From Sorex araneus (lineage: Eukaryota > Chordata > Mammalia > Eulipotyphla > Soricidae), in NCBI RefSeq assembly GCF_027595985.1, contig NC_073313.1, positions 103,899,552-103,963,551 on the forward strand: 64,000 nt of DNA. The letters are read 5' to 3'. Position 1 is the first letter of the stretch. Each line of letters begins with the position of its first letter. The position numbers were made by a program, and so were the translations under genes. This document shows positions 3,481 to 52,812 of the stretch, piece after piece. The notes beneath the pieces are model-generated. The model did no database searches, was not told the DNA's origin, and saw nothing but the letters and a program-made list of their open reading frames with translations.

Positions 3481-3622
3481 AGTGATTTTGTGTGATATCG
3501 GCACTCTGACTGTGACTTAACTTGGACCCAGGTGCCTTGCCCTCTGGCGCACGCAAGCAGTCAAGCACAGACATAGTGCGCCTGTATGCACATACTTACG
3601 GACACAGGCACGCAAGCACGTA

Positions 3623-3630
3623 TTACGTAA
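3623..3630. promoter_or_regulatory. TTACGTAA bZIP palindrome
   Basis: An exact 8-bp palindrome matching the core bound by PAR-bZIP, NFIL3 and C/EBP-type factors (D-box-like). It lies about 70 bp before the first ATG of the AGO2-like ORF. A single site of this length can occur by chance. Confidence 0.4.
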
Positions 3631-3659
3631 GCACGCACGCACACACGTACTTAGCTAGG

Positions 3660-3671
3660 TGCGCATGCGCA
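3660..3671. promoter_or_regulatory. NRF1-type site
   Basis: TGCGCATGCGCA is a perfect match to the palindromic NRF1 consensus. It contains three CpGs in a sparse-CpG region and sits 22 bp before the ATG at 3694. NRF1 sites are common in TATA-less housekeeping and testis promoters, so this is the strongest candidate for a core promoter element of the retrogene. Confidence 0.6.
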
Positions 3672-3693: not shown

Positions 3694-6291
3694 ATGGAGG
3701 TGCCCAAGATGGAGTTGTCGAAGCACAAGGCTGAGTCATCTCAGCCATGGCAACATCCCGAAAGTGATGCTTTCAGGCTTCCTCCGAGACCTGACTTTGG
3801 GACCTCTGGGAGAGTGATCACCTTGAAGGCCAATTTCTATGAAATGAACATTCCAAAAATTGACATCCATCATTATGTCGTGGATATCATGCCAGATAAG
3901 TTTCCAGGACGGATTAACAGGGAAGTCATAAGATATTTAGCTGAACTCTTTAAAACTCAGATCTTTGGGGACCAGAAACCAGCTTTTGATGGGAAGAAAA
4001 ACCTCTATACAGTTATGCCACTGCCGATCGGGAGAGATAAGGTGGAACTAGAAGTAACGCTGCCTGGAGGAGGTAAGAGCCGCCTCTTTAAGGTGGCCAT
4101 CAAATGGGTATCCTGTGTGAGCCTGGGGACCCTTCAAGACATGTTAAAAAGTAAGGAGGGCGTGCATCCTGTCCCTTTCACCACTGTCCAGGCCCTGGAC
4201 GTGATTATCAAACATTTGCCGTCCATGAGATACACTCCTATAGGCCGTTCCTTCTTTACGGCCGCAGAGGGTAGTGCCCTCCCACTGGGTGGGGGATTTG
4301 AGATCTGGTCCGGTTTCCACCAATCGGTTCGGCCAACGATGTGGAATATGATGCTCAACATCGATGTCTCGACCACAGCATTTTACAAGGCCCAGCCAGT
4401 GATCCAGTTCCTGTGTGAAATTTTGAATTTACAAAATATTGAAAAGCAACAAAGGCCTCTGACAGATGCCCAAAGGATGAAGTTTGCCAAAGAAATAAAT
4501 GGCCTGAAGGTAGAGGTTACACACAGTGGGCAGATTAAAAGGAAGTACCGCGTCTGCAGTGTAACCCGTCAGACTGCCCGTCATCAAACATTTCTGTTGC
4601 AGAAAGAGAAGGGACAGACTGTGGAGTGCACGGTAGCTCAATACTTCAAGAACAGGCACAAGGTAGTTCTGCGCTACCCTCACCTCCCATGTTTACAAGT
4701 TGGGCAGGAAGAGAAGCATACTTACCTTCCCCTAGAAGTGTGCAACATTGTAGCCGGACAGAGGTGCGTCAAGAAGCTAAGTAACAATCAGACTGCGACT
4801 ATGATCAAGTTAACTTCCCGCTCAGCACCCAGACGGCAGGAGGAAATCAACAAGCTGATGAGGGAGGCGAATTTTAACTCAGATCCCTATGTCCAGGAAT
4901 TTGGAATCACCATCAGCGAAAATATGACCGACATGACTGGCCGTATCCTCCAGTCTCCTGCCCTCCTTTATGGGGGCAGGAATAGAACAGTCATCACCCC
5001 TGTGCATGGGGTTTGGGACATGCGCGACAAACAGTTCCACACAGGCATCGTGATCAAGATGTGGGCTGTGGCCTGCTTTGTCCCTCAGAGCCAGTGCACA
5101 CAGGCCCAATTGAAGTCGTTCATTCTACAACTCAAAAGGATCTCGGGTGATGCAGGAATGCCCATCCCAACACAGCCTTGCTTCTGTAACTACACCCAGG
5201 GAGTAAATAGTGTGGAGCCAATGTTCCGGCACCTAAAGAAGACCTACCCCAACCTACAGCTGGTTTTGATCATCTTGCCAGGTAAGACCCCCATTTACGC
5301 TGAGATCAAAAGAGTGGGGGATACAGTCCTGGGCATAGCCACACAGTGTATCCAGGTGAAGAATGTGCAGAGGGTCATACCACAGACACTTTCCAACCTT
5401 TGTCTGAAGATAAATGTCAAACTGGGTGGCATCAACAACATCCTGCTGCCCCAGAGCAGGTCTCCAGTGTTCCAGCAGCCTGTCATCTTCCTGGGGGCCG
5501 ACGTTACACACCCTGCGGCAGGAGATGACAAGAAACCTTCCATTGCTGCTGTCGTGGGAAGCATGGACACTCACCCCATTCGCTATTGCGCCTCTGTGCG
5601 TGTCCAGCAGCACCGCCAGGAGATAATACAGGAACTGGCACCCATGGTTCGGGAACTGCTCGTCAAATTCTACAAGTCCACACACTTCAAGCCCAGCCGC
5701 ATTATCTTCTACCGAGATGGTGTATCAGAGGGCCAGTTCCAGCAGGTTCTATTCCATGAATTGCTGGCTATCCGAGAGGCTTGCACCAGTCTGGAGAAGG
5801 GCTACCAGCCTGGGATCACATTCATCGTGGTGCAGAAGAGACACCACGCCAGGTTCTTCTGCACCGAGAGGGAAGACCAGGTTGGGAGAACTTGCAATAT
5901 TCCTGCAGGCACTACAGTGGACACGAAAATCACCCATCCAACCGAGTTTGACTTCTACCTGTGTAGTCATGCCGGCGTCCAGGGAACCAGCAGGCCTGCC
6001 CACTACCATGTTCTCTGGGATGACAACCATTTCTCTTCTGATGAGCTACAGATCCTCACCTACCAGCTCTGTTACACCTATGTGCGATGCACACGCTCAG
6101 TGTCTATCCCAGCACCAGCCTACTATGCTCATCTGGTAGCTTTCCGGGCCAGATACCACCTCTTTGACAAAGATCGTGATAGTGCCGAAGGAAGTCACAC
6201 CTCTGGACAGAGCAACGGTGCAGACCAACAAATGATGGACAGGGCTGTCCAGATCCATGAAGACACTCTGCGCACCATGTACTTTGCTTGA
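3694..6291 (+). CDS. AGO2-like: Intronless AGO2-like Argonaute (intact retrogene)
   Basis: Argonautes hold a small RNA guide and repress or cut matching RNA in the cytoplasm. This single open frame of 865 codons aligns with mammalian AGO2 (859 aa) from [11 protein letters not shown] (residue about 30) to the C-terminal TLRTMYFA. Approximate domains: N 30-145, L1 146-234, PAZ 235-353, L2 354-451, MID 452-586, PIWI to the end. Slicer tetrad present: D603 (GADVTHP), E643 (RQEII), D675 (YRDGVSEG), H813 (YYAHLV); AGO1 has R at the last position. MID pocket residues Y535, K539, Q551, K572 and K576 are kept, as is the C-terminal Ser/Thr cluster. AGO2 rather than AGO1/3/4 is indicated by [14 protein letters not shown] and YYAH. 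There are no introns, stops or frameshifts, so it is a retrocopy, evidently under selection. Residues 1-25 match no AGO. There is a 2-residue insertion near residue 145. Start: the ATG at 3694 is first but in weak context; the ATG at 3709 (860 aa) has A at -3 and G at +4 and may be preferred. Confidence 0.93.
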
Positions 6292-6560
6292 TAGACTTTC
6301 GTTTATGACAGCGTGCAAAAGTTGGACTCACACAAGGTCAGCTACACTGAGACCAGAAGAGGCCCAGCACTTACCTTTAGTCAGCATGGAACATGAAATA
6401 ACACCATTTTAAGAAGGCTCGTCATTTCCAGAATGTCTTCCATCCCAGATTTCAAAACTGAATTTGCAGTTGGAGACCTGTCTGAAGACCTACTGTGGTA
6501 AGAAATATGGTTTTCTAGAATCTATATGTTGCTGATTAAAATAGTAATGTGTTTTTTAAA
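6292..6560 (+). other. Probable 3' UTR of the AGO2-like retrogene
   Basis: Moderately GC-rich sequence follows the TGA stop and then gives way to AT-rich DNA. A variant poly(A) signal, ATTAAA, lies at 6535-6540 with a U/GU-rich run just after it (6549-6557). I see no retrocopy poly(A) tail or clear target-site duplication, as expected for an old copy or one primed inside a long 3' UTR. Confidence 0.45.
6535..6540 (+). promoter_or_regulatory. Candidate poly(A) signal ATTAAA
   Basis: This is the commonest variant of the hexamer. It lies 244 bases after the AGO2-like stop and is followed within 10-20 bases by TGTGTTTTTT, a plausible downstream element. Expression data would be needed to confirm use. 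Confidence 0.35.
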
Positions 6561-6702
6561 AATACGGGAACTAGTCAGGGCGCTAAGCATTTAAAATTTA
6601 TTTGGTTATTCAGTATACTTATTTTTAACACTAGTTATTATTTTGTGAATGAGTAAGCCACTTACTGTGCAAAGTGATTGTCTTTTTTGTGAGGACAGAG
6701 TA

Positions 6703-6768
6703 GTAATAATAGTAGTACTGGTGGTGGTAGTGGTAGTAGTAGTAGTAGTAGTAATGGTAGTTGTAGTT
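6703..6768 (+). repeat. (GTA/GTG)n microsatellite
   Basis: An imperfect trinucleotide run of GTA and GTG units of about 60 bases. It creates only low-complexity Val reading frames. Confidence 0.9.
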
Positions 6769-6769
6769 T

Positions 6770-6835
6770 TGCAGTTTGGAGGACTAAACTCGGGTCTCAT
6801 GGCTGCCAGTCTCCACTTTACTACTGAGCCACATC
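6770..6835 (-). repeat. Relic of a tRNA-Ala-like SINE head
   Basis: On the minus strand it reads GATGTGGCTCAGTAGTAAAG followed, at tRNA spacing, by a B-box-like CGAGTTTAGTCC. This resembles a decayed tRNA-Ala promoter rather than the common shrew SINE head. A related stretch is at 19964-20040. Confidence 0.4.
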
Positions 6836-7569
6836 ACTATATGTTTGTTTGCGCACTTATATTTTGGACCTCCCATGTGGAGGGAGGCCTTTCCCTGTTT
6901 ATTCTCTGGAATGGCCATTGAACTGGGGTGAGACTGTGTTTCTTAATCCCTTATCTCTTTAGTCTTTGCATGATAGGGGTCTGGAACCTTCTGATATTTT
7001 CATTAAAGTCAATTTCCAAGTGACCCAAGTGTGCCCCTGCCTGGGCTTACTCAAGTCTTTTGTGACCCCTTCTGTCACCACCTTCCTCTCACTGCACTTG
7101 ACATAAGTAGTGGTGACAGAAGATGAGCCATGTGTGTTTACAACACTTGTATATCCAAATAGATTGTCAGACAAGTACAACTTTAGTGAAAAGTGTTGTT
7201 AAAAATTAAAGACAAGTTTCCAGCAGTCTAATTATAAGGCTTGTCCTTCAGGACTGTGATGTTTATTTTTCAGTCTCTAAAGAATATGGATATGTGCAGG
7301 GAGACATAAAACAGGTCTTAATTCTTTGTCCTTAATGTAAGAGAAAATATGCATATTGGGTTTTCAGTGTTAATGTGAAAAACCAAATTTTTTTAACTTC
7401 TAATTAAAAACTGCATGCTAATTATTGCATATCATGCAATAGGATACCATACTGTTTAGTTTTACTTTGTTTAGTGAAACAAAATAGTTTCACTAATCTA
7501 TTTTTAACATATAAGTTCCAAAATGTTTATGATTCTCAGGAACAATGCTGTGTGGAAAGTGCCCATCCA
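6836..7569. other. No recognisable gene
   Basis: Unassigned intergenic sequence with short frames only and no repeat that I recognise. Confidence 0.4.
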
Positions 7570-8272
7570 CTGCAAAAAATGGAACCTATATAATTTCGTT
7601 TATTGTAAAGTATAAAAACCAACAGAACACATGAGAATCGTTAAATTCAAGATAAAAGAGCACACAAGAGTAGTCTATGAATAGAATGTTCTATTTCTTG
7701 TTCTGTTTGCAAATAATCTGATAAGTTTCTGTTTGGCACACAATAATTATAATTGTTCATAGTTATAAATTATAATTTATAGTCAATAATTTTAATGTTT
7801 ATAAATTTATAAATTATAATTCAATATAATTTATATTGACAACCTTTAGACAATAATTTATAATTGTTCAATATATAGAAGTTTTGTGTCAATAAAAGTT
7901 TAACAAAGTTTACTAAACAATAAAAAATTAACAAATTTCAATATAGATAATGTACATCTGCAGCCAAAACATGCATAATTTTCATAAACAATGTTAGGTG
8001 TAAAAAGCTCCCCCAAAATACAATTGACAACTTGTATTATTGCTTTTATAAAAAGCACAAAAACAAAATCCATGTGTACTGTTAGAATCCAAGATAGCCA
8101 TAAAAGAGAAAACAGGGAGAAGTCTGTGAATCAGCTGTTCAATTTCTTGTTCTTTTTGACAATGTTCAATTAAATTAATGGTTGTTCAGACAATAATTAT
8201 TTGTCTATGTATGTTGTACTTCAATAAAAGTTTAACAAAGTTCAAGAAGTTTCAATAAACAATTTTTAAAAG
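7570..8272. repeat. Diverged tandem duplication, AT-rich
   Basis: Two related copies lie head to tail. Matching landmarks include ATTTCTTGTTCT at 7693 and 8142, and AATAAAAGTTTAACAAAGTT at 7891 and 8223. The offset falls from 449 to 332 bases because copy one carries an extra AT-rich stretch (about 7740-7860). The family is unknown. Confidence 0.6.
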
Positions 8273-8785
8273 TAATAATATTAATATATTTCCTAGTGAT
8301 TATTATAATCGTTTGAAGTATTATAATACTTAAACACAATGTAACATGTTCCAAACACTGTTGTGAGTGATTTTATATTCATTAGTTCATACTGACCCTC
8401 CTAGACCTGCCCATTGGTACCTGTTCTTTGCTGTAATTATTTTCTTCATCAGGAATAATGTTTCCCTCATTTTCATGTGGCTAGCTCCTAACTTCTGCTC
8501 AAAATTAAGCACAATTTCAATTATACTGCTCTACTAAAATTCATTATTTGTCATTTGTCACAGCTTGAAAGTTTTCCTTTTTATTTATGTGCTGGTAATT
8601 TGCTGCCTACCTCTACTAGAGTGCAAGGACTGTTTCCTTGCATTTCAGTATCTTCAGAAACTAAAACAATACTCAGTACCTAATAGGTGTTCAATATACT
8701 TTTTCTGAGTGGACAACTATACAATCAGATTTCCTGTTTATTTTCCCGTAATCCATTCTTCAGACTGTAACCCAAATTGTCTAGT
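8273..8785. other. No recognisable gene
   Basis: Intergenic sequence. I see nothing beyond short frames and scattered A/T runs. Confidence 0.35.
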
Positions 8786-39684: not shown

Positions 39685-41130
39685 GTATTTTAATTTTTAA
39701 ATTGAATCACAGAAATAAACACTTTTACAAAGTTGTTCATGATTAGATTTCAGTCATATAGTGTTCCAACACCCGTCTCTTGATCCAGTGTAATTTTTCC
39801 ACCACCATTGGTCACCCTTTCTCTCCTACCCTCCACTCCACTCTTCTTCCTTCTCCTCCTCCCCCTTCTCCTCCTCCTCCTCCTTCTCCTTCTCCTCCTC
39901 CTCCTTCTCCTCCTCCTCCTTCTCCTCCTTCTCCTTCTCCTCCTCCTCCTCCTCCTCCTCCTCCTCCTCCTCCTCCTCCTCCTCCTTCTTCTTCTTCTTC
40001 TTCTTCTTCTTCTTCTTCTTCTTCTTCTTCTTCTTCTTCTTCTTCTTCTTCTTCTTCTTCTTCTTCTTCTTCTACTTCTTCTCCTCCTCCTCCTCCTCCT
40101 CCTCCTCCTCCTCCTCCTCCTCCTCCTCCTCCTCCTCCTCCTTCTTCTTCTTCTTCTTCTTCTTCTTCTTCTTCTTCTTCTTCTTCTTCTTCTTCTTCTT
40201 CTTCTTCTTCTTCTTCTTCTTCCTCTTCTCTCTTTTACACTCTCTCTCCTTTTGGACCTTATAGTTTGTAATATAGATAATTAAAGGTTATCAGGTATAT
40301 AACTTTACCTACTTTCAACACTCAGTTCCTGTCCAAAATCATCATTTCCAACTATTCTCATACTGATACCTTCTCTCCCTTCTCTATTCTAACTGCCCTT
40401 TGCTGCCCACACACTCTTTTGGCAAGTTTGCAACCATTGACCATCCTCTTGGCCCCTGTTTACCCTTGCCTTAGATATTGGTCTCATTATATATACACAC
40501 ATATATCCCACAAATTAATGCAGTCATTCTATACTTATAACTCTCCCTCTGACTCATTTAACTCAGAATGTTACTCTTTATGTCTATCCATTTATAAGCA
40601 AACTTCATCATTTCATTCTTCCTAACAGTTGAGTAGTTTTCCATTATGTAGGTGTACCATAGTTTCTTTATCCAATCTTCTGTTCTTGGGCACTCGGGTT
40701 GTTTCCAGATTCTGGTTATTGTGAATAGTGCTGCAATGAACATAGAAGTGCAGATGGTGTTTCTACGTTGTGGTTTTTGGCACCCAGGGTATATTCTCAG
40801 AAGTGGTATGCTGGGTCAAATGGGAGCTCAGCTTCTAGTTTTTTGAGGAATGTCCATGTTGTTTTCCACAAAGGCTGAACCAGTTGGAATTCCCAAAAAT
40901 AATAAAGGAGAGCCCTTCTTTCCCTGCATCCATGCCAGCACTGGTTTCCCTTGTTTATTTGGATGTGTGCCAGTCTCTGTGGTGTGATTAGCATCTCCCT
41001 GATGATTAGTGATATAGAGCATTTTTATGTGTCTTTTGACATTTGAATTTCTTCTTTGAGCAAGTTTCTGTTCAGTTCCTCTCCCCATTTTTTGATATGG
41101 TTGGATGTTTTTTTCGTGTAAAGTATTACC
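39685..41130 (-). mobile_element. L1 3' UTR and ORF2 C-terminus with expanded pyrimidine tract
   Basis: Antisense L1: poly(A) side at 39685, CAAAGTTGTTCATGATTAG, then a giant CTC/CTT tract. The ORF2 end is at 40558-41130 (MFIAALFTITRIWKQPECPR, MLYITNHQGDANH). Frames are shifted, so the copy is dead. Confidence 0.9.
39841..40236 (-). repeat. 396-base (GGA/GAA)n polypurine tract (pyrimidines on + strand)
   Basis: All bases are C or T on the plus strand except one A at 40074. Blocks of TCC units alternate with blocks of TTC units: TCC-rich, TTC, TCC, TTC. It occupies the position of the G-rich polypurine run of the L1 3' UTR. The poly-Leu/Pro/Ser frames through it are artefacts of the repeat. 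Confidence 0.97.
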
Positions 41131-52731: not shown

Positions 52732-52793
52732 AGTTAGGAATAGGTTAGGGTTAGGATTAGGGTTAAGATTGGGGTTAGTTAGGGTTAAGTTTG
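52732..52793 (+). repeat. Degenerate interstitial telomere-like (TTAGGG)n
   Basis: About 60 bases of GTTAGG, TTAGGG and near variants (GGTTAGGGTTAGGATTAGGG and flanks). It lies about 20 bases left of a truncated RTE fragment. Confidence 0.8.
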
Positions 52794-52812
52794 GAAATGT
52801 TAAAAATGTTAA

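Follow-up and report, generated by a model that had tools for sequence, protein, structure and literature searches.

The window, by which we mean the whole stretch of 64,000 nucleotides analysed here (C12:103899552-103963551 in a 2.41-Gb assembly), contains an intact and intronless coding frame derived from AGO2, flanked by remnants of the parental 3' UTR and preceded by a short palindrome (Table 1). Alignment of 838 codons of the frame to the introned AGO2 of the same genome leaves a sole gap of six bases, which is in frame, and neither a stop codon nor a frameshift is present. Extended from stop to stop, the frame spans 878 codons and is the longest within the window and its 20-kb flanks; the runner-up in the same region has 411 codons and resembles LINE-1 ORF2-type proteins. 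Named hits to the neighbouring LINE-1 frame come for the most part from mammals, and the SINE sequences of the window suggest a shrew-like genome. Six Argonaute Pfam models score above their cut-off in the 865-residue product, in the order N, L1, PAZ, L2, MID and PIWI. No second long intronless Argonaute frame was found among the 54 best-candidate matches in the assembly.

Table 1. Positions of the retrogene and its flanking features in the window
Feature	Position	Strand	Details
Intact intronless AGO2-derived coding frame	3694..6291	+	865 codons plus stop, ATG to TGA
N-terminal tail, residues 1-25, without alignment to unmasked AGO2	3694..3768	+	Protein alignment from residue 26, DNA homology from 3767
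Remnant of parental AGO2 3' UTR (positions 1-351 past the stop)	6292..6631	+	241 identical and 93 mismatched columns, 8 internal gaps
About 280 bases in excess of the parent between the UTR blocks, including an (AGT)n tract	6632..7008	+	From alignment to the parental UTR
Second remnant of parental AGO2 3' UTR (about +444 to +890)	7009..7440	+	60.9% identity over 414 columns to 7399
Perfect palindrome TGCGCATGCGCA	3660..3671	+	Ends 22 bases before the ATG; 1 match at ≤1 mismatch, 0.01 expected

The surroundings of the retrogene are rich in LINE and SINE elements, and inspection by eye of the nearby frames of at least 90 codons, which does not amount to a gene search, revealed none that is host-gene-like. 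On the minus strand, 10.6-12 kb before window base 1 (about 8-9.4 kb into locus L029), two open frames with lengths of 246 and 194 codons resemble, on inspection by eye, pieces of retroviral protease and gag. A protein database holds an identical product of 815 residues, which corresponds to residues 51-865 and starts at Met51. The contig of this record (P0002) measures 374,364,821 bases and is thus 14,866 bases longer than C12 (374,349,955 bases); it represents another assembly version or else another haplotype, and is probably a second assembly.

The copy is a processed AGO2 retrogene. Ranked against solved structures, the 865-residue product scores best with human AGO2 (1580 bits), followed by AGO1 (1435), AGO3 (1402) and AGO4 (1369). 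The parental AGO2 of the same assembly lies on a different contig (C2) and was spliced from genomic DNA as residues 20-859 in 18 exons, with all 840 positions identical to human AGO2. The copy lacks all 17 introns that interrupt residues 20-859 of the parent, a range that starts after the first intron of the gene. Lying on another contig (C12 versus C2) and lacking introns, the copy is not the orthologue of the AGO2 locus. Identity between copy and parent is 77.7% in protein (838 residues) and 78.6% in DNA. The copy falls within the AGO2 group of tetrapods and coelacanth in a tree (seven rows, 100/99) with a branch length of 0.64 compared with 0.005 for the parent; the tree program flags the placement of so long a row as unsure, and shark AGO2 falls outside the AGO2 group. 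An origin from AGO1, AGO3 or AGO4 is ruled out by the bit scores together with the tree. The first-pass annotation had placed an intronless 865-codon frame here and called it an AGO2 retrocopy. Its coordinates are exact, the absence of introns holds when checked against the parental AGO2, and the identity follows from the intron loss, the AGO2 3' UTR remnant and the best score to AGO2. Its count of about 42 differences over the last ∼300 residues (∼14%) also agrees with the 42 of 279 PIWI residues that differ (15.1%).

An AGO cluster is also present in the assembly on C5, and on the basis of parental splicing matches and the order of these genes in human, we take its members to be AGO4, AGO1 and AGO3. 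A degenerate AGO fragment is found at C5:191542798 (L026:4798-5428, minus strand) and consists of two exon-sized pieces with 448 bases between them, one of which has an in-frame stop.

The retrogene would have arisen from an AGO2 mRNA that was reverse-transcribed and inserted long ago at a distant site on another contig. Neither a poly(A) tract of the copy nor a target-site duplication was found, the longest word common to the flanks being 11 bases, which is at chance level; decay of both marks is expected at a dS of about 1. Over ungapped columns, the UTR identity of the first block is 72%; for positions 7001-7520, a range that exceeds the clear homology, it is 68%. A short GCATATCA match prolongs the second remnant to about 7440, and its 3' end is not sharp. 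The excess between the two blocks was either inserted into the copy afterwards or lost from the parent, and no second copy of it occurs in the 284 kb examined. Immediately behind the UTR remnant lies a direct repeat of ∼400 bases (7458-7839 and 7897-8299, 64% identity).

At the other end of the frame, the N-terminal tail consists either of diverged AGO2 exon 1/2 sequence or of newly recruited codons. As for the parental 5' UTR as its source, the DNA further upstream matches neither exon 2 nor the unmasked part of the CpG island that precedes AGO2, an island that partly reads N, and the first exon of AGO2 was not found in the parental stretch examined. The base at position -3, which carries weight in the choice of a start codon, is T for the first ATG and A for Met6. 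The database record starts at Met51, so that the protein may begin at a methionine other than the first. The palindrome before the ATG, the motif of which we take to be of the NRF1 type, sits in a CA/CG-rich degenerate repeat (one is called at 3588-3653); the CpG o/e is 0.89 at 3501-3650 and 0.45 across the following 150 bases. It is a candidate promoter element in a locally CpG-rich stretch, but may be incidental.

Selection on the protein was evaluated by comparing the copy with the spliced parent. The GY94 codon model with F3x4 frequencies yields an omega of 0.113 (dN = 0.127, dS = 1.13), and fixing omega at either 0.5 or 1 is rejected (2 delta lnL of 191 and 408, respectively). The NG86 method, used beside it, gives 0.133 with a bootstrap range of 0.105-0.168. 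Over the 838 codons, the differences at codon positions 1, 2 and 3 number 127, 77 and 335. As the parent equals human AGO2 in protein, the protein changes are assigned to the copy, the branch of which has an omega of about 0.13 if all silent change occurred on it and of about 0.27 if half did. Of the 144 differences at fourfold sites, 104 replace a G/C of the parent by an A/T in the copy, compared with 13 in the opposite direction; this skew suggests that a large part of the silent change took place on the copy. Among the individual domains, omega is lowest in PIWI (0.094) and PAZ (0.097).

Neutral simulations starting from the parental frame, with branch lengths of 0.1, 0.2, 0.3 and 0.5 substitutions per site, produced on average 7.1, 12.1, 16.7 and 22.8 stops, and none of the 400 runs at each of the four branch lengths remained stop-free. 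The 3' UTR of the copy itself (340 bases) served as an internal control for the gap rate: one gap is seen in 2,520 coding columns versus eight in 357 UTR columns (p = 4e-7). The proportion of silent differences (pS) is 0.47-0.62 in all 12 windows along the gene. This even silent divergence argues against a converted tract, and gene conversion from AGO2 is thereby rejected as the reason for the intactness of the frame. Mis-spliced parental exons are likewise excluded as the source of the selection signal by the 840/840 match to human AGO2. We conclude on strong grounds, from the selection at the codon level, that the copy has been maintained as a retrogene that codes for protein. It would also have gained its own transcription.

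The dS of about 1 and a fourfold K2P of 0.84 between copy and parent mark the copy as old, and its origin likely predates the living Sorex species. UTR divergence is lower than silent-site divergence, and the parental AGO2 3' UTR may be constrained. The first-pass annotation had attributed the intactness of the frame to long purifying selection, had expected stops in a neutral copy of this divergence and had named a dN/dS near 1 on this branch as the value that would refute it. The pairwise omega of 0.11-0.13, with both 0.5 and 1 rejected, lies well under that value, as does the 0.27 on the copy branch that results if half of the silent change belongs there. Every neutral simulation run contained stops, and long persistence is borne out by the dS and the fourfold K2P.

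No orthologue of the whole protein was seen among the best 120 of 1134 protein hits, none of which, its own record aside, exceeds 78% identity over at least 90% of the query; searching with residues 140-450 gave none above 78% among the best 120 of 235 hits. This absence means little, as shrews are perhaps thinly represented in the protein database (no shrew-named hit occurs among the best 120 of 3115 hits to the LINE-1 frame, at 46-63% identity). An 'argonaute-2-like' protein of 294 residues from Pontoporia blainvillei (P0171) shows 51% identity over 93% of residues 140-450 and is possibly another, unrelated Ago retrocopy. A literature search, mostly of papers available without subscription, gave no report of an intact mammalian AGO2 retrogene.

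Over the whole length, 187 of the 838 aligned residues are changed (22.3%), which exceeds the figure for PIWI. The linkers L1 (31%) and L2 (30%) are changed most and PIWI (15%) least. Alignment columns were classified over a metazoan AGO set of 21 proteins, one of which is the parent, and columns with more than two gaps were left out; the number of changes is 189 in this multiple alignment and 187 in the pairwise one. Changes affect 57 of 476 invariant columns, 51 of 163 columns with two residues and 81 of 201 columns with three or more, and hence shun the metazoan-invariant positions (57/476 versus 81/201, p = 1e-15). In 72 of the 189 cases, the new residue is found elsewhere in the family at the same column.

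The catalytic tetrad DEDH is kept in the copy (Asp597, Glu637, Asp669 and His807 in AGO2 numbering), Asp669 being residue 675 of the copy. Arg179, Arg635, Lys709, Arg710, His712, Arg714, His56 and Lys98 are also kept, and the basic central loop is preserved apart from T713A. All eight residues that we take to line the 5'-phosphate pocket (Thr526, Tyr529, Lys533, Gln545, Asn551, Lys566, Lys570 and Arg812) are identical. V547I is the one change within the set of residues that presumably contact the seed and the guide backbone. A slicing-structure paper (PMC11893014) names these catalytic and basic residues, together with Arg68 and Arg97, and their roles. The latter two are replaced in the copy (R68G and R97K), and a single alanine at either position shifted the slicing rate of AGO2 by no more than twofold in the same paper.

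An AlphaFold model based on an 88-row alignment has a pLDDT of 74.7, and its top matches are human AGO2 structures (TM 0.83); a 19-row alignment gives a pLDDT of 45. In the 88-row model the pLDDT drops below 50 at residues 1-24, 180-186, 605-615, 626-629, 637-640 and 800-865. The last four of these segments lie around parts of the active site, so that the model provides no check on active-site geometry. The product is an Argonaute of the AGO2 clade and keeps the pocket for the 5'-phosphate of the guide, all four catalytic residues and the basic residues by which the target is placed for cleavage. A second slicer-type Argonaute beside the parental AGO2, as proposed in the first-pass annotation, is predicted, and this prediction is well founded in sequence.

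AGO3 also retains the catalytic tetrad. Its slicing activity is described as limited (PMC11893014), and kept catalytic residues are therefore no guarantee of slicing. This lends some weight to a maintained retrogene with a product that binds guides but is slicing-dead, acting as a competitor or as a miRNA-type repressor. The 57 changes in columns that are invariant in the 21 metazoan AGOs, which include R196F and F200S in L1 and the N-domain contact change R68G, point in the same direction; they count against strict equivalence with AGO2 and could have altered activity. On the other hand, the catalytic residues are in place, as is the basic central loop save for T713A, constraint is strongest in PIWI and PAZ, and alanine at Arg68 or Arg97 alters AGO2 slicing at most twofold in PMC11893014. 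We consider a slicing-dead product to be unlikely, although not negligibly so.

Ser387 is replaced by asparagine in the copy, where it is residue 393, and 15 of the 16 positions on PIWI that we take to form the tryptophan pockets are unchanged, the remaining one being A620T. According to PMC5507773, Ser387 is the Akt3 site by which AGO2 recruits LIMD1/TNRC6, an S387A mutant does not rescue silencing and binds less LIMD1, TNRC6A and DDX6, and a shift of AGO2 away from cleavage and towards repression is ascribed to phosphorylation of Ser387. That paper also reports that overexpression of S387A left the colocalisation of AGO2 and TNRC6A unchanged and that human AGO3 and fly AGO1 do not have this serine, which makes any deduction from Ser387 soft. 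Judged by these published AGO2 mutants, loss of Ser387 would bias the copy to guide-directed slicing over TNRC6-dependent repression, and the Argonaute is possibly cleavage-biased.

We therefore favour, with a probability of roughly three in four, the reading that an old AGO2 retrogene has been kept as a slicer-type Argonaute, which would join AGO1-4 as a fifth protein of the AGO clade and would lean to slicing. That a long-selected retrogene lost its function lately and is intact by chance appears very improbable, as no disabling change is present throughout the frame and the identical 815-residue product is encoded on another contig, probably of a second assembly. Even less credible is a non-coding role through antisense small RNAs against AGO2. 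For this there is a direct mammalian precedent, and a functional Ago2-derived mammalian insertion is already in print: the mouse pseudogene fragment piC-as(Ago2) lies in a pachytene piRNA cluster and its piRNAs lower Ago2 mRNA (PMC12637555). The mouse fragment is partial and only partly processed (exons 11-19 plus intron 18), acts by antisense piRNAs, has high identity to Ago2 and carries no intact frame, whereas the retrogene described here has an intact frame, a DNA identity of 78.6% and a selection signal at the protein level. A neutral processed pseudogene that is stop-free by luck or by AGO2 gene conversion, with which the LINE/SINE-rich setting, the lack by eye of a nearby host-gene-like frame of at least 90 codons and the retention of only 39 of 140 parental CpGs would agree, is refuted by the omega tests, by the stops in every neutral simulation and by the even silent divergence, the parental splicing being secure (840/840).

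Compared with mammalian AGO2 (human PDB entries 4OLA, 4F3T and 9CMP), the retained retrogene shares the domain order, the DEDH tetrad, Arg710/His712, the 5'-phosphate pocket and the Ser824, Ser828, Thr830, Ser831 and Ser834 cluster. It differs in being intronless, in its 187 substitutions (human AGO2 and the AGO2 of this animal differ by none), in the unaligned N-terminal tail, in two inserted codons in L1 and in S387N, R68G and R97K. Vertebrate AGO1, AGO3 and AGO4 belong to the same AGO clade, but are old introned paralogues, and the copy groups with AGO2.

As a tentative refinement of the slicer-type reading, the product may be an Argonaute for germline- or virus-directed RNAi, by analogy with the Drosophila obscura group and its testis-specific Ago2 duplicates. 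The candidate NRF1-type motif before the ATG would be in keeping with such a role. In the flies, as described in PMC6505081, at least six Ago2 duplications have occurred and all duplicates but one are testis-specific. These duplicates are likewise surplus slicer Argonaute copies held by selection; there, however, many such copies exist, most of them testis-specific and often under positive selection, whereas here a single processed copy is under purifying selection. Mammalian retrogenes have also been linked to male fertility: UTP14, a housekeeping gene of another family, has intact retroposed copies that were kept in separate lineages, shrew among them, and primate UTP14C is reported to be expressed in testis (PMC5750009).

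More speculative still, and in our view doubtful, is the proposal that a retroposed AGO2 free of Akt3/LIMD1/TNRC6 control has long been kept in this mammal lineage, perhaps over tens of millions of years, with slicing by siRNA-type guides as its dedicated task. The guides would be of viral or transposon origin or germline endo-siRNAs, and RNAi would be split from miRNA repression much as it is between insect Ago2 and Ago1.

AGO2 is extremely conserved, with none of 840 residues differing between human and this animal. A maintained copy with 22% of its residues changed and with the slicer machinery in place is thus a natural variant series for the surfaces of AGO2 that are free to vary. With it one can further test directly whether a mammal has separated slicing from miRNA repression, which bears on the debate on antiviral and endo-siRNA RNAi.

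Elsewhere in the window, a long TCC/TTC tandem array with 91-95% matches occupies positions 39842-40234, and a telomere-like interstitial GTTAGGGTTAG repeat is found at 52733-52794.
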